Shown here one piece after another: positions 11,040 to 30,730 of a DNA stretch of 32,709 nt. The position numbers and the translations under genes are program-made. Origin of the DNA: Bacteroidales bacterium (lineage in GTDB: Bacteria; Bacteroidota; Bacteroidia; Bacteroidales; PXBB01); NCBI GenBank assembly GCA_028698995.1, contig JAQVVM010000052.1, positions 1 through 32,709 of the forward strand, read 5' to 3'. The first letter of the stretch is position 1; every line of letters starts with the position of its first letter. The notes beneath the pieces are model-generated. The model did no database searches. It saw only the letters and a list, made by a program, of their open reading frames with translations, and was not told where the DNA came from.

Positions 11040-12866
11040 TCACTTAAACCTTTTTGGATATATTTTTTCAAATAAATCAAGTCGTTTGCGGCTTGTCAAA
11101 ATTTGACGTATCATAGGAATATTTTCCTTTTTGGTAAAATAAAAAAAACTTTTTTGTTTGGTTTTCTCTTCATTACTTTTTGCAACATAAATACCCTTCT
11201 TTGTATAAGGGTCAAATCCGGTGTAATATATCACTGAAGATAAAGTCATGGGTGTGGGCGTGAAATCCTGTGCCTGCTCAATAATAAGGTCATGTTTTTT
11301 TGCACATAATGCCAGCTCTGCCATGTCATCGTAAGTAGTATCCGGATGTCCAGAAATAAAGTAGGGAATAATCTGATAATTTAAATGGTGTTGCTTATTC
11401 AGTAAATCAAATTGTGCCTTAAAAAGCAGAAAGTTGTTGAAAGAAGTCTTGCGCATTGCTTTAAGTACTTTTTCTGAAGTATGTTCGGGAGCTACTTTTA
11501 AACGCCCTGAAACATGTTTGAGTATGAGTAGTTTTAAATATTCCTTGGCATACTTCTCTTTATCATTTAAACTTCCAATAAACAAATCATATCTTATACC
11601 GCTGCCAATGGTAATTTTCTTTATGCCTTCAACTTGTGAAGCTTTTTCATACAAATTTACAAGTGCTTTGTGGGAATTGTTCAGATTGGTGCAAATGTTT
11701 GGAAATATGCAAGAAGGGCGTGCACATTTTTCGCACATTTCCAAGTTTTCCCCTTTCATTTTATACATATTTGCAGAGGGACCTCCCAGATCACTTATGT
11801 GCCCTTTAAATTCCGGAAAACTTGCTATTGTTTCCAACTCTTTTAAAATAGAATCCTCAGTTCTGCTGCCGATAAATTTTCCCTGATGTGCAGATAGAGC
11901 ACAAAAAGCACAGCCCCCAAAACATCCACGATGTATGTTTATTGAATCTTTAATCATTTCAAATGCCGGTACACCTGATTTGTCATATTTTAAATGTGGT
12001 TTTCTCAAAAATGGCAAACCATAAACAGCATCGAGTGCAGCACCATCAAGTGGGGGATAGGGTGGGTTAATGATTACTTTCTTGTTGGAAATCAATTGAA
12101 CTATAGTTGCAGGATACATTTTGTTGTATTCTTTTTCTGTCTTAATAAATGCTTCTGAGAAAACCTTTTTATCCTTTAGACAACTTTCGTGCGAGGGTAA
12201 TTCTACAATATTGCTGATATCTAGTTTTTCATCATTTTTTGACAGATATGCCAATTGTCTGATATGTCGAAGTGAGGCATTTTTATCGGTTTTTAGAGTG
12301 TCAACAATGGCTCTCAGAGGTTGCTCTGCCATACCGTAAACAAGATAATCTGCCCTGCTTTCCGTTAAAATACTTGGTTTAAGGCTGTCAGACCAGTAAT
12401 CGTAGTGAGTTAAACGTCTCAAAGAGGCTTCAATACCACCAATAATAAGCAGTGAATCAGGAAAGATATCTTTAATGATTTTACCATAAACAACAGTTGC
12501 ATAATCCGGTCTTTGACCAGCCTTGCCACCAGCCGTATAAGCATCCTCAGACCTTAAACGTTTTTGGGCAGTATAGTGATTAACCATCGAATCCATATTG
12601 CCGGCACTGACAGCAAAAAATAAATTTGGTTTACCAAATTTTTTAAAATCTCTTAAATCATCCCTCCAATTTGGTTGTGGAACTATGGCTACCTTCAATC
12701 CTAAACTCTCTAAAAATCGTCCTATCAAAGCATTCCCGAACGATGGATGATCAACATAGGCGTCTCCACTGAACAGTATAACATCAACACACTCCCAACC
12801 AAGTCTTTCCATTTCTTTAACACTTGTTGGTAAAAAATATTCTCCAATTTTATAAGTTGTTTTCAA
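11040..12866 (-). CDS. ygiQ: YgiQ family radical SAM protein
   Basis: The 608-residue protein carries the radical SAM cluster motif CFGGCAFC with Cys315, Cys319 and Cys322. Upstream is the YgiQ-specific N-terminal domain (FLPTSVKEMERLGWECVDVI, DAYVDHPSFG, GGIEASLRR), whose start fits a family of about 600-700 residues. A second Cys cluster, CEKCARPSCIFPNIC, follows the radical SAM core. The family is widespread in Bacteroidota and Proteobacteria, but its substrate is unknown to me. It is the last gene of a minus-strand run gap-rsgA-ygiQ, 10 bases after rsgA. It ends 38 bases from the convergent FISUMP gene, with no convincing terminator hairpin between them. Confidence 0.93.
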   Translation of the reverse strand: MKTTYKIGEYFLPTSVKEMERLGWECVDVILFSGDAYVDHPSFGNALIGRFLESLGLKVAIVPQPNWRDDLRDFKKFGKPNLFFAVSAGNMDSMVNHYTAQKRLRSEDAYTAGGKAGQRPDYATVVYGKIIKDIFPDSLLIIGGIEASLRRLTHYDYWSDSLKPSILTESRADYLVYGMAEQPLRAIVDTLKTDKNASLRHIRQLAYLSKNDEKLDISNIVELPSHESCLKDKKVFSEAFIKTEKEYNKMYPATIVQLISNKKVIINPPYPPLDGAALDAVYGLPFLRKPHLKYDKSGVPAFEMIKDSINIHRGCFGGCAFCALSAHQGKFIGSRTEDSILKELETIASFPEFKGHISDLGGPSANMYKMKGENLEMCEKCARPSCIFPNICTNLNNSHKALVNLYEKASQVEGIKKITIGSGIRYDLFIGSLNDKEKYAKEYLKLLILKHVSGRLKVAPEHTSEKVLKAMRKTSFNNFLLFKAQFDLLNKQHHLNYQIIPYFISGHPDTTYDDMAELALCAKKHDLIIEQAQDFTPTPMTLSSVIYYTGFDPYTKKGIYVAKSNEEKTKQKSFFYFTKKENIPMIRQILTSRKRLDLFEKIYPKRFK

Positions 12867-15349: not shown

Positions 15350-17302
15350 CTACCTTATCAGTGTTACTGTTCCATCAAGGATGTGTCTTTTGCTATGCCC
15401 ATCACGGTAAACAACCCGATAAGGGTAAACACCCTCAGGAACTTTATTGTTGTTGACTTTACCATCCCATCCCATATGCACATCATCCGTGAAAAACAGA
15501 AGTTTTCCCCATCTGTCAAAAATTCTCAATTCTATCTCTGTAACCCCATCTCCATAAATATAAAACATATCATTTTTAAGATCCTCATTTGGAGAAAAAG
15601 TATTGGGAATATAAATAGTAAACATGGGTTGGATATAGATTGAGCCAAAAGTCGAATCCATACACCCGTATTGATTAGAAACGGTAAGGGCTATCTCATA
15701 ATAGCCTGTGTCCGTAAATGTATGCGTAAATACAGGGACATAATAATGGGTGTTATCTTCAATATACCAGTGCCAGCTAGTTGCACCTGTAGAATTGTCA
15801 AAAAAGTTAATAATGGGTTCGAGTATTGGGGCTATTTTAGGGTCAGCTTGAAAATCTGCAATAGGATTGGGATGTAAAGTCAAAGGTACCGAAATGCTAC
15901 TCTCACAGCCGTATGCGTCACTTACAACAACGGTATAGGTCGTTGAGGTATTTGGTGAAACCATAATTATTGGAGAGGTGTTCTGGCTGCCTATAGTAGG
16001 GTCTGATGGACTGGAAGTCCATAGATAATTTGTTCCCCCTCCAGCAACAAGTGAAGCAGATTCACCTCGACAAAGTGCAGGATTTTCTGGTTTAATCGAT
16101 ACAGGAGGTAATTGATTAACTGTAACAACAACACTATCTGCTGAAGAACAGCCAATACTGTTCGAAACAGTTACGGTATAAGTAGTAGTTGAAGTGGGGG
16201 TTACTGTTATGGTCTGGGTTGTTGAAAAAGCACTCCAAATATAGGATGCACCGCCCGAAGCTGTCAGGCTAACAGAGTTGTTGACACAAATGGTGGTATC
16301 TTCGCTTATGATTATCTGAGGATTATCTGCAACACTTATAGTTTCAGTTACTGAATCAGCACAACCTTCGGGTGTAGAATAAGCATACTGAATAGTATAA
16401 GTACCAGGACCAACAGAAGATGGTGAGAACATATCACTTGTTACACCCTGTCCGCTGTATGTGCCTCCGGCTGGATCACCTCCGGTAAGAGCAAAATCAG
16501 GAATATCTCCACAAACATTCTGAAAAGGTGCTAATGTTACAATGGGCATAGGATTTACAACAACAACTGTTGTAACAGCAGGACTGGTCTGTCCATTAAC
16601 AGTAATAGTCATGGAATAAGTTCCTGCATCACCAGTAGTTACATTTGGAATAGTAATATCCATCAAATTTGATGTAAAGCCGTTTGGGCCAGTCCAGTTG
16701 TATGTGGCATTAGGATTTGGATTAGTAACAGTTATCTCAAGTGTTTCACCTTCGCATAAGGGTCCGTTGTTCTCAATAGGAGGAGCAAGAATACCGCAAT
16801 TAGTAGTACCATGATTAGGATTTCCGGTATTGGATTGGTGAAAATTTATGTTACATGGTTGATTTGAATAATTGCATATCAATAAAATATATATTTGGCC
16901 TGCTTGTGCATTAGGAATATTGCAGGTCTCGTTCCAAGCAGTTGAATAGCTGCAATCAACAGTATTTCCTGATGTCAGTTGAGCAACACAAGGTGATGTC
17001 TGATTAGTGAAAGGACCCCAGCACGAAAAATCAATGTCAACTTGAGGTGTACTGCTCATGTATATGTCAATTGGTCCGTTGTTCAAAACTTCCATATAAT
17101 ACCATGCAGGGTTTGGTTGTGTTCCTAAACAAGTATAAGCAGCTCCTGATTGTGCTGTTCCTGCATTTACACCGGCAGGAAAATTATAAACAGTGTCTGT
17201 GCAGAAAGGAAGAGAATTTTGACATAAATTATTTTGTGCACGAAGAGAAAAATGAAAAAATAATAATAACAATAATGGTAAAATCAATGCGGTTTTTCTC
17301 AT
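15350..17302 (-). CDS. Secreted Ig/PKD-repeat protein with CHU_C (T9SS) C-terminal domain, 650 aa
   Basis: A signal peptide (MRKTALILPLLLLLFFHFSLRA) is followed by an N-terminal Cys-containing domain (about 22-165). Several Ig/PKD-like repeats follow, recognisable by CEGETLEITV, CVNNSVSLTASGG and CRGESASLVAGGG. A PKD domain is at about 480-555 (NFFDNSTGATSWHW). The last ~90 residues are the gliding-motility-associated C-terminal domain: YIPNTFSPNEDLKND, LRIFDRWGKLLF, GWDGKVNN and the terminal DGTVTLIR. This type B tail directs export through the type IX secretion system and often links to motility adhesins. The start lies 11 bases after the stop of the upstream 771-residue paralogue, with which it shares the last ~170 residues in outline. 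Adhesin or enzyme function is not determinable; the Ig repeats favour adhesion. Confidence 0.92.
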   Translation of the reverse strand: MRKTALILPLLLLLFFHFSLRAQNNLCQNSLPFCTDTVYNFPAGVNAGTAQSGAAYTCLGTQPNPAWYYMEVLNNGPIDIYMSSTPQVDIDFSCWGPFTNQTSPCVAQLTSGNTVDCSYSTAWNETCNIPNAQAGQIYILLICNYSNQPCNINFHQSNTGNPNHGTTNCGILAPPIENNGPLCEGETLEITVTNPNPNATYNWTGPNGFTSNLMDITIPNVTTGDAGTYSMTITVNGQTSPAVTTVVVVNPMPIVTLAPFQNVCGDIPDFALTGGDPAGGTYSGQGVTSDMFSPSSVGPGTYTIQYAYSTPEGCADSVTETISVADNPQIIISEDTTICVNNSVSLTASGGASYIWSAFSTTQTITVTPTSTTTYTVTVSNSIGCSSADSVVVTVNQLPPVSIKPENPALCRGESASLVAGGGTNYLWTSSPSDPTIGSQNTSPIIMVSPNTSTTYTVVVSDAYGCESSISVPLTLHPNPIADFQADPKIAPILEPIINFFDNSTGATSWHWYIEDNTHYYVPVFTHTFTDTGYYEIALTVSNQYGCMDSTFGSIYIQPMFTIYIPNTFSPNEDLKNDMFYIYGDGVTEIELRIFDRWGKLLFFTDDVHMGWDGKVNNNKVPEGVYPYRVVYRDGHSKRHILDGTVTLIR

Positions 17303-17313
17303 GTCAATCTATT

Positions 17314-19629
17314 CTATCTTACTAAACTTACTGTACCTGTAATTCTTTTCCTTTTATTAAAGCCGTCTAAATAATCAACTTTGTAGAAATATACATCCAC
17401 AGGAGCATCTTTGTTATTTAATGTCCCATCCCAGCCGATATTAATATCATCTGTACGGAAAACAAGTTCACCCCATCTGTTGAATATTCGTAATTGAAAT
17501 TCCATAATGCCTTCACCATATACATAAAACATATCGTTTTTTAAATCATCGTTGGGTGTAAAAGCATTAGGAACATAAATTGTAAAATTGGGTTTAATTG
17601 TAACATAATTAGTTGTAGAATCAACACAACCGTAAATGTTGTAAACAGTTAATGTAACCTCAATTGTGCCTGTATCACTGAATGTGTGCTCAAAAGAGGG
17701 GGAGGTGTATTGAGAACCATCACCCAGTTGCCAATTCCATATAACAGCTCCCGTTGAATTGTCAAAAAAGTTAATGTGGGGTTCAAAAATATTTACAACT
17801 TTTGGAGTAGCATAAAAACTTGCAACAGGGTTCGGATTAAGAATTACCTGTCCGGATGCGGTATTAGTGCAACCTATACTATCGGTTGCAACAACTGAAT
17901 AGGTTGTTGTGTATCTTGGAGAAACTAATAATATCTGATTGCTTGATTGGTTTCCCATTGTTGGGTCCGAAGGTGCAGCTGTCCATGCATAAGTAACTCC
18001 TGCACCGGCTACAAGGCTTACGGATTCCCCTTTGCAAATAGATTGAGTGGGAGGTTTCACTGTGACTTCAGGTAAATCCTTTACACTGACAAAAACACTG
18101 TCATAACCATCACATGCTCCATAAATTGTAACAAAGTAGTTGGTGTTTTGTGTAGGTTGAACCGTTATGGATGCAGTAGTTGAACCTGTACTCCATAAAT
18201 AGGAATTTCCACCTGCTGCCCATATAGTGCCGGAACTTCCACTGCAAATAAGGGTGTCATTACACACAGAACCATATCCTGATCCAACACCAATAGAAAT
18301 CTGATCTGTATGTACCTGGAAGCAATCATCAGAAATAGTAACAGTATAAACTGTTGGTTGTGAAGGGCTGACTGTAATAATGCTTCCGGTTGAGCCATCG
18401 CTCCAAGCATAGGTGTAGGGCGGAATACCTCCGGTTGCTTCAATAAATAAATCTATAGTATCCCCACAAATTAATGTATCATTGCTTTTTACTAAAGTAG
18501 TTAAAAGCTCATTATTTAAGATAAAAATTACAACGGAGTCCATCCCCGAACATACGGTTGTTTGCGCTGTTAATATGACAGTAACGGTTGGACCGGGAAG
18601 TCCTGTAAAAAGGGGATAAATAGTAGTAGTTGCAGAATTCTGTCCGGCAAGAATTGTTACCGAATCGGCTATGGGAATATAATCCACACCCATAATCGCA
18701 GTGCCACCAAGTGAATAATGAATGGTGAAGTCATTCGTTACGTTTTGAGTTGTGGTAAATGTTATTATGGCATCACTGCAACCTCTGATGGCGGCGGTAT
18801 CTATTGCTGAATAAGAATAAGCTGTTGAGATACTTATTGCATTAGATGTAAAACTGTTTTCTTCTAGGAAAACAGCTGAATCGTAAGCAGAGTCACCGGC
18901 ATCTCCTACTGCAATTTTAATGGTATATTGAACACAAGGTGTTACAAGTGCCCAAGCAGTTAGTACGGTTGTAAAACCATCATACTGAACAGTAGCCCCA
19001 CTTGCATTGTTGACATAATATTGAGAATAGGAGCTTGCGTTGATATTGTCAATTGTAACAGGGAGCGTTGTCCCTGGTATTCGAGCAATATTATAGTTGG
19101 TATAGTTGCCACCTCCTGGATTAGGACCTGAAACAAAAAACCCAAAAACATCATTAAAACTTGACCCCACCCATTCAGGGTATTCATCTGAACCAAAAAC
19201 ATAACGGAATTTAATAGTGTCTGATTCCGGAACAAAATTAAATTGCAGATAACATGCATCATTTATTGTATAACCAGGGATGAGGGAAGCTAATTGAGGA
19301 TCACTACCTGTACCATTACTTGTTGTAATACTTCCTGACCCATTTGGACCAGGAGCATCCATAACACTACCCGATGATAAAATAATTCCTGATGTAATTC
19401 CAAGATTAGTAGGTGAGCCTGTTGTAAAACTTCCTCTGGAGTTTGCTGCTCCGCTAAAGGTAGGATTCGTAACAGTAACGCCACCACCAACCAATACATC
19501 GACCAGTTGCTGTGCACTTAAATTTGGTGTGATCTGTAATTGTGAAAAACTTCTTAAAAACGGGAAAGATACAATTATGATTATTATAATGAATCTGATT
19601 GCATTCAGACGTTTATATTTTTTACACAT
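17314..19629 (-). CDS. Secreted choice-of-anchor L protein with CHU_C (T9SS) C-terminal domain, 771 aa
   Basis: The signal peptide ends near SFSQ. A choice-of-anchor L domain occupies about residues 30-260 (QQLVDVLVGGGVTV, GIILSSGSV, YVFGSDEYPEW, NDVFGFFVSG). It is followed by a Calx-beta-like segment (GGTAIMGVDYIPI, DSVTILAG) and several Ig/PKD-like repeats with paired Cys. A PKD domain (INFFDNSTGAVIWNW) and a CHU_C tail (YVPNAFTPNDDLKND, LRIFNRWGELVF, ending ITGTVSLVR) close the protein. It is thus a T9SS substrate. The gene is the first of a minus-strand run with the 650-residue paralogue and the VOC protein. The 224-base divergent space to the dipeptidase gene holds a lone exact -7 octamer (minus strand, 19736-19743) but no well-spaced -33. 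Confidence 0.93.
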   Translation of the reverse strand: MCKKYKRLNAIRFIIIIIIVSFPFLRSFSQLQITPNLSAQQLVDVLVGGGVTVTNPTFSGAANSRGSFTTGSPTNLGITSGIILSSGSVMDAPGPNGSGSITTSNGTGSDPQLASLIPGYTINDACYLQFNFVPESDTIKFRYVFGSDEYPEWVGSSFNDVFGFFVSGPNPGGGNYTNYNIARIPGTTLPVTIDNINASSYSQYYVNNASGATVQYDGFTTVLTAWALVTPCVQYTIKIAVGDAGDSAYDSAVFLEENSFTSNAISISTAYSYSAIDTAAIRGCSDAIITFTTTQNVTNDFTIHYSLGGTAIMGVDYIPIADSVTILAGQNSATTTIYPLFTGLPGPTVTVILTAQTTVCSGMDSVVIFILNNELLTTLVKSNDTLICGDTIDLFIEATGGIPPYTYAWSDGSTGSIITVSPSQPTVYTVTISDDCFQVHTDQISIGVGSGYGSVCNDTLICSGSSGTIWAAGGNSYLWSTGSTTASITVQPTQNTNYFVTIYGACDGYDSVFVSVKDLPEVTVKPPTQSICKGESVSLVAGAGVTYAWTAAPSDPTMGNQSSNQILLVSPRYTTTYSVVATDSIGCTNTASGQVILNPNPVASFYATPKVVNIFEPHINFFDNSTGAVIWNWQLGDGSQYTSPSFEHTFSDTGTIEVTLTVYNIYGCVDSTTNYVTIKPNFTIYVPNAFTPNDDLKNDMFYVYGEGIMEFQLRIFNRWGELVFRTDDINIGWDGTLNNKDAPVDVYFYKVDYLDGFNKRKRITGTVSLVR

Positions 19630-19853: not shown

Positions 19854-21230
19854 ATGGAAAATTTAAAGAATTATATTGAAACTAACAAAGAACGTTTTTT
19901 AAATGAATTGTTCAATTTGCTTCGTATTCCATCTATAAGCTCAAGTGAAGACCATAAAGGAGATATGATTAAAACAGCAGAATTGATTAAGCAAAGCCTG
20001 CTAAATGTAGGTGTTGATAAGGCTGAAGTTTGTCCCACTGAAGGGAACCCTGTTGTTCTGGCTGAGAAATTTATAAATGCATCCTTGCCAACAGTGGTTG
20101 TTTATGGACACTATGATGTACAACCAGAAGGAGACCTTGAACTATGGAAAACACCTCCATATGAACCAACAATTGTTGGTGATCAGATTTATGCACGTGG
20201 TGCTAATGATGATAAGGGGCAGCTTTTTATGCATGTTAAAGCCCTTGAATTTATGTTGCGTAATAATGAACTTCCATGTAATGTGAAGTTTATGATTGAA
20301 GGAGAGGAGGAAATTGGATCTCCTAATTTGTACAAATTTGCCAAAGAAAACAAAGAAAGACTTAAAGGGGATGTGATTTTGGTTTCAGATACAGCCATGA
20401 TAGCAAATGATATCCCTTCTATTGATGTTGGATTAAGAGGTCTGGCTTATGTTGAAGTTAAAGTTCAAGGACCGAATAGAGACTTACACTCAGGCGTTTT
20501 TGGTGGCGCCGTTGCGAACCCTTTAAATGTCCTATGTCAGATGGTTGCTTCTTTAACAGATGAAAACAATCAAATTACTATTCCCGGTTTTTATGATGAT
20601 GTTTTGATAGTGAGTGATTCTGACAGGGCTGAAATGGCCAAGGCTCCTTTTGACATTGATGAGTATAAATCTGATCTTGGTTTAAAAGAAGTTTATGGCG
20701 AAAAGGGATACACTACAAATGAAAGAACAGGCATAAGGCCTTCTCTCGACTTAAACGGAATTTGGGGTGGATATATAAAGGAAGGAGCAAAAACAGTTCT
20801 TCCTGAAAAAGCCCATGCCAAAATATCAATGAGATTAGTACCTAATCAGGACCCTGATAAAATTGCAGAACTTTTTGCAAAACATTTTAAAGCTATTGCA
20901 CCCCCTTATGTTGAGGTAGAAGTAAAGCCTTTACATGGTGGAAATGCTTATATTTCTCCAACAGATTCAATTGGTTTCATAGCTGCCTCAAAAGCAATGG
21001 AAAAAACTTTCGGCGTAAAACCTATTCCAACTCGCAGTGGAGGTAGTATCCCTATTATAGCCTATTTTGAAAAGGAATTGGGTATGAAGTCCATATTGAT
21101 GGGATTTGGACTTGAAACAGATGCTATCCATTCCCCCAACGAACATTATGGTTTGTTTAATTTTTTTAAGGGCATAGAAACAATACCATACTTTTACAGA
21201 AACTTCACAGAATTGTTTTTAAGAAAGTAA
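19854..21230 (+). CDS. M20 family metallodipeptidase
   Basis: This is a dizinc peptidase of the M20 family, CNDP2/PepV-like, that cleaves dipeptides in the cytoplasm; no signal peptide is present. Visible motifs are YGHYDVQP (metal ligand His86, catalytic-site Asp88), GANDDKGQ (bridging Asp119), EGEEEIGS (general base Glu152, ligand Glu153), VSDT (Asp179) and AIHSPNEH (ligand His426). A dimerisation domain insertion (about 195-350) carries DLHSGVFGGAV. The length of 458 residues is normal. The start at 19854 follows a weak purine stretch, gaaaaga. The next gene, a lipoprotein, begins 11 bases after the stop, so the two probably share a transcript. Exact dipeptide preference is unknown. Confidence 0.94.
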   Translation: MENLKNYIETNKERFLNELFNLLRIPSISSSEDHKGDMIKTAELIKQSLLNVGVDKAEVCPTEGNPVVLAEKFINASLPTVVVYGHYDVQPEGDLELWKTPPYEPTIVGDQIYARGANDDKGQLFMHVKALEFMLRNNELPCNVKFMIEGEEEIGSPNLYKFAKENKERLKGDVILVSDTAMIANDIPSIDVGLRGLAYVEVKVQGPNRDLHSGVFGGAVANPLNVLCQMVASLTDENNQITIPGFYDDVLIVSDSDRAEMAKAPFDIDEYKSDLGLKEVYGEKGYTTNERTGIRPSLDLNGIWGGYIKEGAKTVLPEKAHAKISMRLVPNQDPDKIAELFAKHFKAIAPPYVEVEVKPLHGGNAYISPTDSIGFIAASKAMEKTFGVKPIPTRSGGSIPIIAYFEKELGMKSILMGFGLETDAIHSPNEHYGLFNFFKGIETIPYFYRNFTELFLRK

Positions 21231-22579: not shown

Positions 22580-24739
22580 CTATTCTACAATATTGAGTTC
22601 ATTAATTATATGTTGTGCACCTGCATATTTATCAATGATAAAAAGGATGTATCTGGCGTCCACAGATATGGTGCGTTGAACATCCGGTTCAAAAACAATA
22701 TCTCCGCTCATGGCTTCCCAGTTTCCATCGAAAGCCAATCCTACAAGTTGTCCTTCACCGTTTATAACAGGACTTCCGGAATTACCACCCGTAATATCAT
22801 TGTTTGAGATGAAGTTCACATGCATAACACCATTTTTAGCATAGCGTCCGAAATCTCTGTTTTTTATTAGTTCTTTAAGTTTTTGATCCACAACAAATTC
22901 CCAGTTATTGGGGTCTTCTTTTTCTAAGATACCGTCAACAGTTGTAAAATAGTTGTAATAAACACCATCTGCAGGGTAATAGTCAAGTACACGTCCATAG
23001 CTTAAGCGCATTGTCGAATTGGCGTCGGGATAGAAAATTCTATCGCTTTGCATTTCTCTCAAACCAGCGACAAATAAACGTGAAGCCTTTGACAAGAATT
23101 CGCTACCTGTTTTCATTTTTTCCAACATATCAAAATAACTGGTAAATGAAGCTTGCATCAGTTTAAAAACAGGGTCTTTTTCAAGGATTTGTGCATTGGG
23201 CCTATTCAGAAAGGCTTCTACTTTTGATTTATCAGCAAAAATGGTTTTTGAATACACATAAGTTGCATATTTGTTAAAGTCACCTCTGTATTTAGTATGA
23301 ATTTGTCCAAGTAAAGCAGGTTGTAGATTAGATGGAACATCAGCGTAGTACATCTGAAGCATGGCAATGAATATTTTTTTATCTGTTTCAAGGTTGTAGT
23401 CTTTGTAGAAATCGTTTAAAGAGGCGCGCAGGCTGCTGCTCATCCTTTCAATTTTTACCGGGTCCTTATCTGCTTTTTTAATTTCATTATACAAAGACTC
23501 AAAGCGTCTTGAGAACATAATAAGCTCTCCCCCTCTTGCAATTGCTTCCATGAAATACCATCGTGCTTGAGAAAATTCTCTTAATAATTCATAGGCTCTA
23601 CCAATACTGGGAACAATGTCGGTGTATCTTCTTCTAGCTTCTGCATTTGAATTTACCCACTGGATGAAATCATTTTCTAGGGCACGTTTACGTTCATAAA
23701 CATTTAATCTTTTAAGTCCACGGGTTTGTCCAATAAAGTATTTCCAGTAATTTGATGTTTGAGCATATTTTGCAGCATACTGGATACGCACGGCATCACT
23801 TAAATCCATGTCTTCGCGCATAATTGCCAGTTTTTTCTCACGAATTTTAACAATAGTAGGATTGCTTCGATCAATAGCTTCTCGGATTCCGTAAGATGTT
23901 AAGTATCTGTTGGTACTGCCCGGATACCCGATGGTCATTGTAAAGTCATTTTTTTCAAGGCCTTTAATTGAAAACGGTAAAAAGTGTTTGGGCTTATAAG
24001 GAATATTGTTTTCAGAATAGGTAGCCGGTTTTCCATCGGGTGACATGTATACACGAAATAATGAAAAATCGGCCGTGTGGCGTGGCCACATCCAGTTGTC
24101 TGTATCAGCGCCGAATTTTCCTATTGATGAGGGAGGTGCAGCAACAAGACGCACATCTTTAAAAACTTCGTACACCATCAGATAAAATTCATTTCCTTCG
24201 AAAAAAGTAGAAACTGAGGCTTCGTAATGTGTGTCTTTAATAGCTTCACTTTCTAATTTACTGCTGACTTCTCTTATCTTGGCAGCTCTTTCACTTTCGG
24301 ACATTGTATCGTTTAGCTCTCTTAGAATTTTTTGGGTAACATCATCAATTCGAACCAAAAAACGAGCTGTAAGACCTTCATTTGGTAATTCTTCAGCCTT
24401 TGATTCAGCCCAGAATCCATTCTTAAGATAATCATGTTCAACGGAGCTATGAAATTGAATCTGTGAATAACCACAATGGTGGTTGGTTAGTATTAGTCCT
24501 TCTTCGGAAATTATACTACCGGTACATCCTCTTCCAAATTGAATAATGGCATCTTTCAAACTTGAATTATTGATGTCATAAATTTGTTCTGGAGTCAGTT
24601 TGAGACCCATTGCCTGCATTTCGTTGTATTTCTGATGCTGAATTAAACTCAGAAGCCACATACCTTCATCAGCTTTAAGCTGTAAGGAAAAAACAATAAA
24701 AAGCGAAACAAAAATCAGAGTAATGCGTTTTGTAATCAT
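22580..24739 (-). CDS. S46 family dipeptidyl-peptidase, DPP7 type
   Basis: A signal peptide (about 1-23) precedes the mature start DEGMWLL, typical of S46 exopeptidases, which release dipeptides from the N-terminus of oligopeptides in the periplasm. The catalytic triad is visible: His88 in TNHHCGYSQIQ, Asp224 in WPRHTADFS and Ser654 in GGNSGSPV. The His-Asp distance of 136 residues equals that of Porphyromonas gingivalis DPP7. The position 18 residues after the serine is Gly672 (LAFDGNWE). In DPP11, which prefers acidic P1 residues, this position is Arg, so DPP7-like preference for hydrophobic P1 residues is inferred. The length of 719 residues is normal. It stands alone on the minus strand between a convergent lipoprotein gene and a divergent one. 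Confidence 0.95.
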   Translation of the reverse strand: MITKRITLIFVSLFIVFSLQLKADEGMWLLSLIQHQKYNEMQAMGLKLTPEQIYDINNSSLKDAIIQFGRGCTGSIISEEGLILTNHHCGYSQIQFHSSVEHDYLKNGFWAESKAEELPNEGLTARFLVRIDDVTQKILRELNDTMSESERAAKIREVSSKLESEAIKDTHYEASVSTFFEGNEFYLMVYEVFKDVRLVAAPPSSIGKFGADTDNWMWPRHTADFSLFRVYMSPDGKPATYSENNIPYKPKHFLPFSIKGLEKNDFTMTIGYPGSTNRYLTSYGIREAIDRSNPTIVKIREKKLAIMREDMDLSDAVRIQYAAKYAQTSNYWKYFIGQTRGLKRLNVYERKRALENDFIQWVNSNAEARRRYTDIVPSIGRAYELLREFSQARWYFMEAIARGGELIMFSRRFESLYNEIKKADKDPVKIERMSSSLRASLNDFYKDYNLETDKKIFIAMLQMYYADVPSNLQPALLGQIHTKYRGDFNKYATYVYSKTIFADKSKVEAFLNRPNAQILEKDPVFKLMQASFTSYFDMLEKMKTGSEFLSKASRLFVAGLREMQSDRIFYPDANSTMRLSYGRVLDYYPADGVYYNYFTTVDGILEKEDPNNWEFVVDQKLKELIKNRDFGRYAKNGVMHVNFISNNDITGGNSGSPVINGEGQLVGLAFDGNWEAMSGDIVFEPDVQRTISVDARYILFIIDKYAGAQHIINELNIVE

Positions 24740-25596: not shown

Positions 25597-25893
25597 ATGG
25601 GTAAGACAGAACTAGATATACGCAAATTAGAGGAAATAGCCGGGAAATTAAGAGCTATAGCACATCCGATGCGAATTGCCATTATTGAATTGTTACAGGA
25701 TAATCCAAAATTAAATGTAACACAGATATATGAAACACTTAAAATTGAACAGGCTGGAGCATCACACCATCTGAACCTCCTTAAAAACAAAGGAGTTCTT
25801 GGGTCGAAAAGAGAAGGGAAAAACACATTTTATTATTTGAAATCAAATGCTATCAATCAAATTCTTGATTGCATGAGTAAATGTGGCTCTTAA
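25597..25893 (+). CDS. ArsR-family winged-helix transcriptional regulator
   Basis: The 98-residue protein has the ArsR/SmtB pattern: LRAIAHPMRIAIIELL (about 19-33), recognition helix region IEQAGASHHLNLLKNKGVL (50-68) and wing REGKNTFYYL (72-81). The metal-binding ELCVC motif of the alpha-3 helix is absent; that stretch reads KLNVTQI. Two Cys at the very end (Cys92, Cys96) could serve a thiol or metal sensor, but this is speculative. No metal transporter or arsenic gene is adjacent, so the target is not apparent. Its stop codon at 25891-25893 directly abuts the stop of the convergent glycosyltransferase gene. Confidence 0.9.
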   Translation: MGKTELDIRKLEEIAGKLRAIAHPMRIAIIELLQDNPKLNVTQIYETLKIEQAGASHHLNLLKNKGVLGSKREGKNTFYYLKSNAINQILDCMSKCGS

Positions 25894-26616
25894 TCAGACT
25901 TTAGGAAGATTCTTTTTAAACCGGTTTATTTCAAAAGCAAGTAAAAAAACGTCACAAACAGCTTTTGATACAATTTTTAAAGAAGCGCCCTTTGGCTTTC
26001 CCGTATGTCGGATTCCATAATTCGATTTTATTTCAATAAGTTTTTTATTGGTTAACATCATTTTGGCACAAATTTCACTTTCAACCAATGAACTTGTCAC
26101 AGCTAGATTTTTAATTTTTAGCTCCTCATTCTTATAGACTTTTATCCAGTTCACATCTTTCATTTTAATACCAAGAGCATAGCGATTTATTAATCGGTTT
26201 ATCTGACTTAAAATTTTTCTAAAAAAAGAATAAGATGTTTTTTTTTCTCTGTAAAAAGAAATAATGGTTTTTTTTGGTATAGAAGCAAAAGGGATGAGTT
26301 CTTCTGTATTAAACTGACCATCTGCCGGAATTGCACAGACATTTTCTTTTGATGCTACTGTGTATCCACTTATAAGAGCTTTCCCAATACCCATATTTTC
26401 CTTATGATTTATGAGGATAATTTTGTCCCTATTCAAGCAGAAATTGTTGATTTCAATAGCAGTGGTGTCGGTACTGCCATCGTTAACTATTATAAGTTCG
26501 TAATCTTTGGGTGATATTTGTTTTAGAACAGTCCATGCATCCTCCAAAGTCTTATAGATATTCCCTTCTTCATTAAAAGCAAAAACTATTATACTCCATG
26601 TTTGGGGTGCTTGCAT
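25894..26616 (-). CDS. Glycosyltransferase family 2
   Basis: The 240-residue GT-A type protein has the family 2 signature: SIIVFAFNEEGNIYKTLE near the N-terminus, LIIVNDGSTDTT (nucleotide-binding) and NMGIGKALISGY. PADGQFN replaces the usual D-x-D-type motif, as in several DPM1/GtrB-like members. No transmembrane segments follow the catalytic domain, unlike GtrB, so it is probably soluble or peripheral at the cytoplasmic membrane. It is the last gene of a minus-strand run, with its start 3 bases from the stop of the oxidoreductase. Donor and acceptor are unknown; modification of a lipid or polysaccharide is the usual role. Confidence 0.9.
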   Translation of the reverse strand: MQAPQTWSIIVFAFNEEGNIYKTLEDAWTVLKQISPKDYELIIVNDGSTDTTAIEINNFCLNRDKIILINHKENMGIGKALISGYTVASKENVCAIPADGQFNTEELIPFASIPKKTIISFYREKKTSYSFFRKILSQINRLINRYALGIKMKDVNWIKVYKNEELKIKNLAVTSSLVESEICAKMMLTNKKLIEIKSNYGIRHTGKPKGASLKIVSKAVCDVFLLAFEINRFKKNLPKV

Positions 26617-26618
26617 TT

Positions 26619-27635
26619 CTAAAGTTTGTAATTTAATAATTTCCCATTATTAACAATAGATTCTTGCGCTAACTCAAGAATTTTTACTGTTTCAAGTCCG
26701 GTGAGTATATCTGAAACAGGTTTCTTTCCTTGCTTAATTGCTAGTGCAAAGTCTTTTATCAATAAAGAAAGAGGCTCTTCAATCGAAAATTTAGGGATGG
26801 TGATATCTCCGACTCTATAATCAACAAGTATTTTCCCTTTGTCTTTTACTTTTAAAACATTTACTGAGCTGTCATAAATTTTTATTTTGTCCGATGGCTC
26901 AATGTCATCGTAAACAATCATTTTCTTTGATCCTCCAATTAACATCTTGCGGATTTTAACAGGCGACAGCCATGAACAATTCATGTGTGCTATCAATCCT
27001 GAACTGTAATGTAAAATTAGAAAAGCAATATTTTCTTTTACTTCGGAGTAGTAAATCTTTCCAATTGCCTGTACGTATTGAGGTTTTTCAGCCATTAAAA
27101 AATTAATGATTGAAATATCATGAGAAGCTAGATCCCATAAAACGTTTACATCATTCTGAAATTTTCCGAGATTGATACGTGTAGAGTCAATGTATTGTAT
27201 ATTTCCCAAGGATTTTTTGTCAATAATTTCCTTTATTTTTCTGACAGCTCCATTGTATAAAAAGGTATGGTCAATCATTACTTTGCGGTTAAGCTTCAGA
27301 GACAGTTCATAGATTTCAGCAGCCTTTTTAAAGGAATCTGTCATTGGTTTTTCAATAAGCACATCTTTTCCATTCAATAAAGCTTGACGAGCAAAATCGT
27401 AATGGGTATTCACAGATGAGGCTATAATAACTGCCTCAATCAAAGGGTTGTTTAGAACATCCTCAGGTTTTTCAGTAAGTTTGATATTGGGATATAATTT
27501 ACGGGCTTTCAGTAAATTATCTTTTTTTTCATCACAAATACATTCAAGTTTGAATTCCTTGCTTGCGTATAGATTCCTTGCCAAATTTGGACCCCAATAA
27601 CCAAAACCTATAAGTCCTGCTTTAATCATAATCAA
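26619..27635 (-). CDS. Gfo/Idh/MocA family oxidoreductase
   Basis: This 338-residue NAD(P)-dependent dehydrogenase carries the Rossmann signature GLIGFGYWGPNLARNLY, close to those of nucleotide-sugar dehydrogenases such as WlbA. The conserved EKP catalytic motif (VLIEKPM, near 95) and the catalytic-site His in LWDLASHDISI are present. The C-terminal sheet domain carries IAHMNCSWLSPVKIRKMLI. The second Met (residue 3) could also be the start. The gene lies between the B12-radical SAM gene and the glycosyltransferase on the same strand. This suggests oxidation or reduction of a sugar that is later transferred, but the sequence does not identify the substrate. Confidence 0.92.
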   Translation of the reverse strand: MIMIKAGLIGFGYWGPNLARNLYASKEFKLECICDEKKDNLLKARKLYPNIKLTEKPEDVLNNPLIEAVIIASSVNTHYDFARQALLNGKDVLIEKPMTDSFKKAAEIYELSLKLNRKVMIDHTFLYNGAVRKIKEIIDKKSLGNIQYIDSTRINLGKFQNDVNVLWDLASHDISIINFLMAEKPQYVQAIGKIYYSEVKENIAFLILHYSSGLIAHMNCSWLSPVKIRKMLIGGSKKMIVYDDIEPSDKIKIYDSSVNVLKVKDKGKILVDYRVGDITIPKFSIEEPLSLLIKDFALAIKQGKKPVSDILTGLETVKILELAQESIVNNGKLLNYKL

Positions 27636-27667
27636 CTTTTTTTATTTATATTTTGACTTAAGGCTTA

Positions 27668-27675
27668 CAAATGTA
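27668..27675 (-). promoter_or_regulatory. Candidate -7 element before the oxidoreductase gene
   Basis: Minus-strand TACATTTG fits TAnnTTTG exactly, with a predicted start about 25 bases before the ATG. No well-placed -33 TTG is seen. Confidence 0.3.
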
Positions 27676-27691
27676 ACATTTATTTTTAAAG

Positions 27692-29164
27692 TTATTTTGA
27701 CTTTAAGTGTTTTCTGGTCTTGATGATTGTTTCAGGAATAGCTATAATTCTGTTTATAACATAGCTCCAGTCCAATAATGGAATTGATAAAATGTTGATA
27801 AGTTTATGTGTAAAACTGAATTTTTTGCTTAATTGTTTAATTAATAAACGTTTTAAAGATTGATTTACTTTGTTATAGAGCGGTAAAATAGCATAAAATT
27901 TATAGATAAGTTGCTTATCCTGATTTTCGATGAAAGAATCGAGCTGATGCATAGAGCTTAGTCCTATCTTAACTTTTTTATAATTCTCAGGGGTTAAAAA
28001 AATATTCTCAATACAATAATCTGTTAAGCGGGTACGAGGGAATGGATAAAAAATAAAACTGCCGGTAAAATCAGCCTTGATTTTATCTGTAAGTTCGTAG
28101 GCTTTAATCATCTTATCGTAATTGTCACCGGGGAAACCAAAGATATATTCAGTAATGAGTTTTATGTTATAACTTTTAATTATGTGTGCTGCTTCTATTA
28201 CCTGTTCGTTACTATAGTGCCTGTTGAGAAGTTTTGTACGCACATCTGCACAACCTGATTGCACACCCATTATTACAGATTTGCATCCGCTCTTTTTGAG
28301 TAACGCTATGTTCGATTTTTTTACTGTATTTGGTGTAACATAGCATTCAAAAGGTATATTGATATGTAAGGGATAAAGCTCTGAAAAAAGACTGAGCCAT
28401 TCTTTATCATATGAGAAAACATCATCAAAAAATTGGAAAAAACGAGGTTTGTATTTTGTCTTATAAATTAGTAACTCTTCTATCACACTTTCAACACTTC
28501 TACGCCTGAGAAATTTTTCGTGTTCGTAGATTTTGTTTCTAAAACTGTTAATACAATATGAACAAGCATAAGGGCAGCCTCGTGATGTCATTACTAAAAT
28601 CCTTTTTGACAAAACACCATAGGTGTTAAAAGCTTCTTTATCAGGAAATGGTAGGCTGTCAAGATTTTTTATTAATGAACGTACAGGATTTTTAATTACG
28701 ATACCACTTTCCTTTTTAATCCAAAGATTGCGTATGTCATCAATGCTTTTATGTGTGGTCATTTTTTCTGCCAGCTCAGCAAGAGCCTCTTCTCCTTCGC
28801 CAATACAAATCATGTCCACCCATTCTTCTTTAATTAGCTCCTCGGGAAGTGAGGTAGCATGAAAACCTCCTGCAATTACAGGAATGTTAATTTCTTTTTT
28901 TAAATCCAACATGAATTTTCTAACAGCCAGATACTGGTTGGTCAAAAAGCTTACTGCAATAAGATCAGGGTTGTACTTTTTTGCTTTCCTTATAAGAAGC
29001 GAAGGATTGATTAAAGAGTTAAGAAATGGTAGGTTGAGGTAGAAGTTGTTACCGAGTTGGGGGTCAAATAATAATTCGCAACTATGTCCACGCTCTTTCA
29101 TGTATGACATTAATGCAGACACTCCCAGATTTTCGGAACCACAACAATAGAAAAGTATGCGCAT
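27692..29164 (-). CDS. B12-binding-domain radical SAM protein
   Basis: The 490-residue protein has an N-terminal cobalamin-binding-like Rossmann domain (about 1-135), with LIAVSFLTNQYLAVRKF, AGGFHATSLPEE and GEGEEALAELA. The radical SAM core follows, with the cluster motif RGCPYACSYC (Cys197, Cys201, Cys204). QFFDDVFSYDKEWL and YIFGFPGDNYDKMIKAYELT match the usual substrate-side strands. Such proteins perform methylations, ring contractions or C-C bond chemistry on lipids, hopanoids, phosphonates or antibiotics. The C-terminal 100 residues are Lys-rich and hydrophobic and may contact the membrane. It lies upstream of the oxidoreductase and glycosyltransferase genes. The exact reaction is unknown. 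Confidence 0.9.
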   Translation of the reverse strand: MRILFYCCGSENLGVSALMSYMKERGHSCELLFDPQLGNNFYLNLPFLNSLINPSLLIRKAKKYNPDLIAVSFLTNQYLAVRKFMLDLKKEINIPVIAGGFHATSLPEELIKEEWVDMICIGEGEEALAELAEKMTTHKSIDDIRNLWIKKESGIVIKNPVRSLIKNLDSLPFPDKEAFNTYGVLSKRILVMTSRGCPYACSYCINSFRNKIYEHEKFLRRRSVESVIEELLIYKTKYKPRFFQFFDDVFSYDKEWLSLFSELYPLHINIPFECYVTPNTVKKSNIALLKKSGCKSVIMGVQSGCADVRTKLLNRHYSNEQVIEAAHIIKSYNIKLITEYIFGFPGDNYDKMIKAYELTDKIKADFTGSFIFYPFPRTRLTDYCIENIFLTPENYKKVKIGLSSMHQLDSFIENQDKQLIYKFYAILPLYNKVNQSLKRLLIKQLSKKFSFTHKLINILSIPLLDWSYVINRIIAIPETIIKTRKHLKSK

Positions 29165-29245: not shown

Positions 29246-29740
29246 TTATTGGTTTTCGTATTGCTGGATTTCTTCAAAAATATATTCGATACTTACATTG
29301 GCTATTTTGAACATTTCTTCTGATTCCATCCCTGCATGATATTTTCGTTCACAAACAATTCTTGTAATACCGCAGTTGATAATGAGCATAGCACAAACCC
29401 TGCAAGGGGTCATGCGGCAGTAAAGGGTTGCGCCTTCAAGTGCAATACCGCTTTTGGCTGCTTGACAAATGGCATTTTGTTCAGCATGTACAGTTCTGAC
29501 ACAATGGTTTGTTGTGTGACCGTCTTCATGAACAACTTTTTTAAACTGATGACCTACTTCATCACAATGGGGCAAACCAACAGGAGAACCGACATAACCT
29601 GTCACAAGGATCTGTTTGTTTCTTACGATTACACATCCACTTCTACCTCGGTCGCATGTAGCTCTTTCTGAAACAGTATTGGCAATTTTCATAAAATATG
29701 CATCCCATGAGGGGCGAACATATTCTTTTGGTTTTTCCAT
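29246..29740 (-). CDS. dCMP deaminase family protein
   Basis: This is a zinc-dependent deaminase of the deoxycytidylate deaminase family, which converts dCMP to dUMP for thymidylate synthesis. The 164-residue sequence has the HAE motif (His85, Glu87) and PCRVC (Cys113, Cys116), which supply the zinc ligands and proton shuttle. RGRSGCVIV and TGYVGSPVGLPHCDEVGH are also conserved. Related ComE-type proteins exist, but no competence genes are adjacent. Its start is 3 bases from the ddl stop, so they are likely translated from one messenger. Confidence 0.93.
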   Translation of the reverse strand: MEKPKEYVRPSWDAYFMKIANTVSERATCDRGRSGCVIVRNKQILVTGYVGSPVGLPHCDEVGHQFKKVVHEDGHTTNHCVRTVHAEQNAICQAAKSGIALEGATLYCRMTPCRVCAMLIINCGITRIVCERKYHAGMESEEMFKIANVSIEYIFEEIQQYENQ

Positions 29741-29743
29741 ATT

Positions 29744-30730
29744 TTAAATGTGTTTTAAAGCGTTTTCAATGAGTGTTGTAAATAGTTTTCCAATTGAAAT
29801 ACCAGCGGCTTCAGCTTGTTTCGGAACTATGCTCTCATCTGTCATGCCCGGAATAGAATTAACTTCGAGGAAAAACATTTTTTCGTCATCAGTAAGTATA
29901 TAATCAAAGCGTACAACACCCTTGCAATTGAAAAAGACATATAGCTCTTTTGAAACATGCTGGCAATATTCCGTAATATGCTGAGGTAGAACAGCCGGTG
30001 TTATTTCATCTGCTTTGTTTTTGTCATATTTGGCATCGAAATCAAAATATTCATTTTTACTGATTATCTCGGTAATTGGAAGAGCCATAATTTCATTGTC
30101 AAAGTTTAGAACGCCACAAGTAATTTCTCGTCCCTTAACAAATTTTTCAATCACAACAGCCTGATCAACTGAAAAGGCCAAATCTATAGCTTTTCTTAAT
30201 TCATTCTTCTCTTTTACTTTTGAAATTCCAAGGCTCGAGCCCGCTTCATTGGGCTTAACAAAACAAGGTAATCCAACTTTATTGATAATTTCCGCATCCG
30301 AATAATTGGCACCTTTTCTTAATAAAACAGCATCAGCAACATGACAGATTTTTAAACCTGAAAGCAACTGAGAACAGAAAAACTTGTTAAATGTCAGTGC
30401 TGAAGTTATTAGATCGCATGAGGTATATGGTATGTTTAGTAAATCAAAATAACCTTGTAACTTTCCATTTTCTCCTGGAGTGCCATGAATGGCAATGAAA
30501 ACAGCATCAAATTTAACCTTCCTGCCATCAGCTATGATACTGAAATCATTTTTGTCGACAGTCTGTTTTATAACGCCGGTATGATAAATCCAACCTTCGT
30601 TGGTAATACTTATTACATAAGTGTCAAATTTTTTTCTGTCGATGTTGCTTTCAATTATTTTGGCGCTTTTTAGAGAAATATGCATTTCTCCTGAATCACC
30701 TCCTGTAACAATCGCAATTTTCTTTTTCAT
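29744..30730 (-). CDS. ddl: D-alanine--D-alanine ligase
   Basis: This ATP-grasp enzyme makes the D-Ala-D-Ala dipeptide of peptidoglycan precursors in the cytoplasm. Visible are the N-terminal IAIVTGGDSGEMHISLKSA, AIHGTPGENGKLQGYFDLL, PYTSCDLITSALTFNK and the central domain CFVKPNEAGSSLGISKV. The Mg-ATP site is FFLEVNSIPGMTDESIVPKQ. The length of 328 residues is normal. It is the first gene of the long minus-strand run and is divergent from the PASTA-domain gene, another cell-wall-linked function. The 109-base divergent space carries a -7-like octamer for ddl. Confidence 0.96.
   Translation of the reverse strand: MKKKIAIVTGGDSGEMHISLKSAKIIESNIDRKKFDTYVISITNEGWIYHTGVIKQTVDKNDFSIIADGRKVKFDAVFIAIHGTPGENGKLQGYFDLLNIPYTSCDLITSALTFNKFFCSQLLSGLKICHVADAVLLRKGANYSDAEIINKVGLPCFVKPNEAGSSLGISKVKEKNELRKAIDLAFSVDQAVVIEKFVKGREITCGVLNFDNEIMALPITEIISKNEYFDFDAKYDKNKADEITPAVLPQHITEYCQHVSKELYVFFNCKGVVRFDYILTDDEKMFFLEVNSIPGMTDESIVPKQAEAAGISIGKLFTTLIENALKHI

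Follow-up and report, generated by a model that had tools for sequence, protein, structure and literature searches.

The window analysed here is the whole of contig C55, which has 32,709 bases and belongs to a Bacteroidales assembly of 4.47 Mb in 119 contigs. It carries three closely packed minus-strand genes; in the order of reading, the first encodes a B12-binding-domain radical S-adenosylmethionine (SAM) protein, the second a Gfo/Idh/MocA oxidoreductase and the third a family-2 glycosyltransferase (Table 1). The first two genes are separated by 56 bases and the last two by only 2 bases. A preliminary description of this DNA had named the same three genes on this strand, and the coordinates of the open reading frames (ORFs) together with Pfam confirmed both their layout and their identities. 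All three ORFs exceeded Pfam curated cut-offs and are thus more than chance open frames. In our assessment there is an even chance that the oxidoreductase and the glycosyltransferase make and transfer a 3-oxidised or 3-modified sugar of the cell envelope, with the radical SAM protein as a lineage-limited partner.

The oxidoreductase matched both Pfam domains of its fold family (GFO_IDH_MocA, 5.4e-22; GFO_IDH_MocA_C3, 7.3e-13). Its best NCBIfam model was the uridine diphosphate N-acetylglucosamine (UDP-GlcNAc) 3-dehydrogenase NF040723, with 134.6 bits against a cut-off of 450, and the same model scored best, again below the cut-off, for the three relatives tested. The protein contains the motifs GFGYWG, EKP and DLASHD, and we take EKP and D-x3-H to be the sugar dehydrogenase motifs of Gfo/Idh/MocA enzymes; the fold and these motifs, both present here, are common to many other members of the family. 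A fold search likewise returned the Gfo/Idh/MocA family broadly, with GnnA (7bvj) at ranks 9 and 10. The second-best NCBIfam model, myo-inositol 2-dehydrogenase (97.7 bits, cut-off 355), would fit a catabolic glycoside or inositol dehydrogenase that does not act on nucleotide sugars. We consider such a role very unlikely, since amino-sugar biosynthesis layouts surround the relatives of the oxidoreductase at 11 of 15 loci and a glycosyltransferase gene is its direct neighbour both in the window and in two relatives.

The informative evidence on the oxidoreductase is the gene context of its relatives. At 1e-30 the protein found matches in 14 of the 392 other genomes of the order, and the 15 loci opened were those of all 14 genomes plus that of a second genus, G001. 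Relatives of a DegT aminotransferase and of a hexapeptide acyltransferase were each clustered with the oxidoreductase relative at 11 of these 15 loci (1e-8); the two queries came from L093 and L090, which are themselves among the 15 and in which Pfam confirms both proteins. The four loci lacking DegT were L088 and L094, with neither partner, L089, with the acyltransferase only, and L104, where the contig begins in the gene. The neighbourhood counts at 1e-8 and those at 1e-5 given below used stop-to-stop frames, in which the oxidoreductase of L087 is also visible. Among plasmids, 730 records contained an oxidoreductase match (best identity 46.6%), and all three loci opened (H11, H12 and H16; 43-47% identity) had the order acyltransferase, Gfo/Idh/MocA, DegT among polysaccharide genes; two of them adjoin polysaccharide ABC-transporter genes and an O-antigen translocase lies within the third. 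This arrangement corresponds to the synthesis of 3-amino or 3-acylamino nucleotide sugars. The sugar or glycolipid theme proposed for the trio holds.

The glycosyltransferase was assigned to family 2 by Pfam (Glycos_transf_2, PF00535; 4.6e-17, 62.9 bits against 23.3). It also matched the ArnC model NF007986 weakly, with 45.9 bits and a cut-off of 529, and we presume a likeness to DPM1. At residues 97-101 it reads PADGQ, in which P97 and D99 are invariant in an alignment of three members, and DGD or DAD stands at this place in the more distant relatives opened (L125-L131). Generic family-2 glycosyltransferases that Pfam and a profile find are overlooked by phmmer when the window protein is the only query, and the adjacency counts given below therefore use profiles. 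Two of 392 other genomes of the order matched at 1e-20, and with the profile 35 of 197 other genomes of the phylum did so at the same threshold. Plasmids gave 12 records, the eight listed having 26-34% identity, and the profile found 10 weak loci in viral contigs. Seven glycosyltransferase loci were opened (the five best in the phylum, a paralogue in the same genome and one in genome G782), and no relative of the oxidoreductase or of the radical SAM protein was detected in them by profile. At two loci from other members of the phylum, L125 (7681-9337) and L126 (7495-9190), the glycosyltransferase relative directly follows an epimerase-like ORF with an NAD-dependent epimerase-type start (GGGGFIGSH, judged by eye), which may be another sugar pair.

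The oxidoreductase-glycosyltransferase pair recurred at two of the 15 oxidoreductase loci. In G001, which represents another genus of the same family, the contig begins inside the oxidoreductase gene (64% identity over residues 276-334), and this gene overlaps by 4 bases with that of a glycosyltransferase of 63% identity; across the pair the identities span 61-64%. In G558, from another family of the same order, genes for a DegT aminotransferase, an oxidoreductase (37%) and a glycosyltransferase (30-32%) stand in succession; a carbamoyltransferase gene follows them on the opposite strand, and divergently upstream lies the beginning of a radical SAM gene that is truncated by the end of the contig. 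This fragment gave no phmmer match to the window protein at 1e-3, a profile match of 8e-9 and no Pfam B12-binding match even at E 1, and thus it does not belong to the radical SAM subfamily of the window. Among the other members of the family of G558, the glycosyltransferase profile matched in one of six (G782), where the layout is different.

The radical SAM protein combines an N-terminal B12-binding domain (6.4e-15) with a Radical_SAM domain (5.1e-19), both above the Pfam curated cut-offs, and has the cluster motif CxxxCxxC as CPYACSYC at residues 197-204. These features and its fold place it in the superfamily of B12-binding-domain radical SAM enzymes. The AlphaFold2 model had a mean per-residue confidence (pLDDT) of 78.2, with values below 50 at residues 39-51, 404-406 and 447-490, and a predicted template-modelling score (pTM) of 0.77. 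It matched MgmA (9ccb; Z 29.3, 374 residues, 3.1 A, 19% identity), AprD4 (6fd2; Z 28.1, 403 residues, 3.3 A) and OxsB (5ul3; Z 27.0, 419 residues, 3.8 A), which we take, partly from the structure titles, to perform C-methylation, diol dehydration and ring contraction, respectively. As the matches span these three chemistries, the fold does not tell which of them applies, and AprD4, with the same fold, is not known to bind cobalamin. None of the 25 NCBIfam families shown (of 30) reached its cut-off, the best being TIGR04013 with 119.3 bits against 251. The hopanoid enzyme HpnJ, the ladderane-type lipid family TIGR04072, BchE and MgmA (TIGR04014) were considered as assignments and rejected, their cut-offs being missed by wide margins.

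The relatives of this protein are distant. In a set of 60 genomes that included its own, generic matches at 0.001 occurred in 38 of the 59 others, the best having 36% identity; at stricter thresholds, 11 of 392 other genomes of the order (1e-35) and three of 394 other genomes of the phylum (1e-40) gave matches. The genome itself contained 17 matches at 0.001, the protein itself included (on contigs C11, C28, C51, C56, C68, C84 and others), and G001, from the same family, contained 16; for the remaining 58 genomes the number was 0-9 each. The search of a genome-contig collection returned a single distant locus, in Clostridia (29% over residues 182-355), viral contigs gave no match, and 82 plasmid records matched, all below 60% identity and the ten listed at 20-27%. 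In genome G781 two methyltransferase-domain genes are interleaved with two B12-type radical SAM genes (L081, 5929-10370), and on a plasmid of Solidesulfovibrio carbinolicus (L166, 4872-9380) three consecutive genes annotated as radical SAM lie near pseudaminic- or sialic-acid-type sugar genes.

The preliminary description proposed that the three genes form one operon and one pathway, in which the oxidoreductase would make a sugar, the radical SAM enzyme would C-methylate or rearrange it and the glycosyltransferase would transfer it, and named conservation of the trio in distant Bacteroidota as support. The common strand and short gaps, the absence of a minus-strand terminator-like site between the radical SAM and oxidoreductase genes, the presence of some distant radical SAM relatives among sugar genes and the fragment of a different subfamily divergent beside the three-gene row of G558 all agree with a single operon. 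However, the gene-neighbourhood comparison did not bear out such conservation. In the 28 radical SAM neighbourhoods opened (six from the same genome; chosen for opening from a larger number of matches, and differing in length, with several contigs short), no oxidoreductase was detected at 1e-5, and the lone weak match at 1e-3 was that of L043 (6e-4). Moreover, no radical SAM match exceeding 36% identity passed 1e-35 in the 392 genomes of the order or 1e-40 in the 394 genomes of the phylum. The trio as a unit was not found elsewhere in the loci examined: the radical SAM gene stands apart from the other two in the relatives, and only the oxidoreductase-glycosyltransferase pair recurs. We therefore consider the one-operon pathway rather doubtful.

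The glycosyltransferase profile matched in five of the 28 neighbourhoods at 1e-3. The gene lies directly beside the radical SAM gene at three of them (L080, L083 and L086); at L039 an LPG_synthase_TM protein and an unassigned ORF stand between the two, and at L045 the match is further off. Pfam confirmed family 2 for the proteins of the first four of these loci. Thus, a glycosyltransferase near a radical SAM relative is not rare, and the three directly adjacent ones are longer (357-379 residues) and of other kinds. The adjacency counts rest on profiles built from the window proteins and their relatives themselves.

The neighbourhood of G001 also bears on the origin of the arrangement. In this genome the genes for the ligase, the deaminase, a PASTA protein and the next protein occur in the same order as in the window but without the trio after the deaminase, its place being taken by a 621-residue ORF that begins MCGILG, presumably an asparagine-synthase-like protein. 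The pair of G001 is located elsewhere, beside a class II tRNA-synthetase-type gene, on a contig whose start inside the oxidoreductase gene leaves a radical SAM gene upstream beyond judgement. The two genera therefore differ at the site of the trio, the three genes having been either gained in this genome or lost or moved in G001. This difference, the richness of the genome in radical SAM proteins of this type and the lack of a recurring oxidoreductase partner beside their relatives would be expected if an unrelated B12-type radical SAM gene had been brought beside the sugar pair by rearrangement and acted in another pathway. The tight packing of the trio on one strand speaks against such chance neighbours, and we regard them as a tentative explanation of fairly low probability.

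Table 1. Genes of the trio and their immediate context in the window
Feature	Position	Strand	Domain or family evidence
B12-binding/radical SAM protein, 490 aa	27692..29164	-	Pfam PF02310 and PF04055
Gfo/Idh/MocA oxidoreductase, 338 aa	26619..27635	-	PF01408, PF22725; TTG start at 27635
Family-2 glycosyltransferase, 240 aa	25894..26616	-	PF00535
Deoxycytidylate-type deaminase, upstream of the trio (context only)	29246..29740	-	PF00383
D-alanine--D-alanine ligase (context)	29744..30730	-	PF07478; NF002527 above cut-off
ArsR/SmtB-type regulator (context)	25597..25893	+	NF033788 above cut-off

The oxidoreductase gene more likely begins with an in-frame ATG at 27629 than with the TTG listed in Table 1. 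On one side the trio is flanked by the deaminase and ligase genes, both upstream on the same strand, and a PASTA protein, and on the other by the regulator gene, a 173-residue ORF without assignment and a large ORF (22580-24739). The regulator gene is convergent with the trio, and its stop codon abuts that of the glycosyltransferase gene. In line with the preliminary description, Pfam found no flippase, polymerase or capsule gene among the 19 window ORFs scanned, which excluded ORFs 22580-24739 and 19854-21230. Promoter-like sites numbered 31 where 25.0 were expected, a count that carries no evidence. The G+C content of the trio (about 30-34%) is slightly below that of the right-hand flank and not below that of the left-hand flank, and being this close to the flanks it gives no ground for a claim of recent transfer. 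G+C climbs to about 50-58% at two large plus-strand ORFs with collagen triple-helix repeats (3-2243, 746 residues, open at the contig end; 2275-9072, 2265 residues), which matched Pfam Collagen at 3.1e-16 and 5.1e-88, respectively, and have DNA repeats of 45 and 54 bases. The minus strand further encodes a radical SAM protein of a different type (11040-12866; Radical_SAM_N, 5.4e-120, and DUF3362) and two PKD proteins with a CHU_C type IX secretion signal domain (15350-17302 and 17314-19629).

The envelope-sugar reading stated at the outset places the functional core in a two-gene sugar unit. The oxidoreductase would act on a nucleotide sugar, most likely one of the UDP-N-acetylhexosamine type that it oxidises at C3, and the DPM1/ArnC-like glycosyltransferase would transfer the product, as such or after further modification, to an acceptor in the envelope, which is probably a polyprenyl phosphate or a glycolipid. 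DegT and the acyltransferase, the usual partners of the oxidoreductase relatives, are missing from the window, which suggests a stripped or rewired module; it could be a rearranged version of the common 3-amino-sugar set, whose aminotransferase and acyltransferase may be encoded at other places of the genome. Ten matches to the DegT protein of G558 occur there (two may be one gene), three of them near 1e-77 and the best with 37-39% identity. About 1 kb separates one of these matches (C8:6927-8012) from a further, weak oxidoreductase match (C8:9069-9446), so a separate set of this kind probably exists in the genome. With the usual aminotransferase partner absent and candidates present elsewhere, the suggestion that the trio is a small stand-alone pathway is doubtful. 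The radical SAM enzyme, judged by its position, may modify the same product, probably through a carbon-centred change (C-methylation, dehydration or rearrangement) on the sugar or its lipid.

Several results weigh against this reading. The oxidoreductase remains far from the NF040723 cut-off (134.6 of 450 bits), and in its fold search GnnA ranks alongside many Gfo/Idh/MocA enzymes whose function is different or unknown. Within the 32.7 kb window neither a DegT nor a hexapeptide acyltransferase relative was found, so the aminotransferase partner expected of a UDP-GlcNAc 3-dehydrogenase (NF040723 or GnnA) is lacking there. The pair recurs at two loci, of which one is truncated by the end of its contig and the other has 30-37% identity, and the five best phylum-wide glycosyltransferase relatives opened (35 genomes matched) adjoin genes other than a Gfo/Idh/MocA oxidoreductase. 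Finally, the radical SAM protein was not found tied to the pair outside its own genome.

A bolder and improbable variant is that the radical SAM enzyme replaces the missing aminotransferase and acyltransferase and acts on a 3-keto or 3-hydroxy sugar, giving a carbon-branched envelope sugar by a three-enzyme route to a C-modified glycolipid. We know of no description of such a route, and the open-licence PMC literature gave none, nor did it yield a paper uniting the features of the trio. All three families are known, and it is their combination that was not seen in the loci examined; the locus is thus a good small biochemical lead of modest significance rather than a system of a new kind. If the pair does make a 3-oxidised or C-branched sugar without the usual aminotransferase next to it, this would extend a common envelope-sugar module by a new branch and point to a concrete class of substrates for one of the B12-type radical SAM proteins, many of which lack an assignment.

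Known systems resemble the trio in parts. The radical SAM protein shares domain order, CxxxCxxC motif and fold with the B12-binding-domain enzymes MgmA, AprD4, OxsB, TsrM, HpnJ and BchE but reaches no NCBIfam cut-off among the families shown and has 19% identity to MgmA. The glycosyltransferase has the family-2 catalytic domain of the ArnC and DPM1-type polyprenyl-phosphate glycosyltransferases and weak ArnC matches, whereas it is shorter (240 residues), has PADGQ in place of a full DxD and scores far below the ArnC cut-off. An excerpt of PMC7663294 presents GnnA and GnnB as the UDP-GlcNAc 3-dehydrogenase and the aminotransferase of the UDP-GlcNAc3N pathway. The oxidoreductase has the Gfo/Idh/MocA fold of GnnA, and its relatives stand with DegT aminotransferases, but the window is without an aminotransferase and the family score is far under the cut-off. 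The closest oxidoreductases seen outside the bacterial family (43-47% identity) belong to 3-acylamino-sugar modules of polysaccharide clusters, such as those on Gloeothece and Sinorhizobium plasmids, with their acyltransferase, Gfo/Idh/MocA and DegT genes; of this set the window keeps the oxidoreductase alone, and adds to it a glycosyltransferase and a radical SAM gene.

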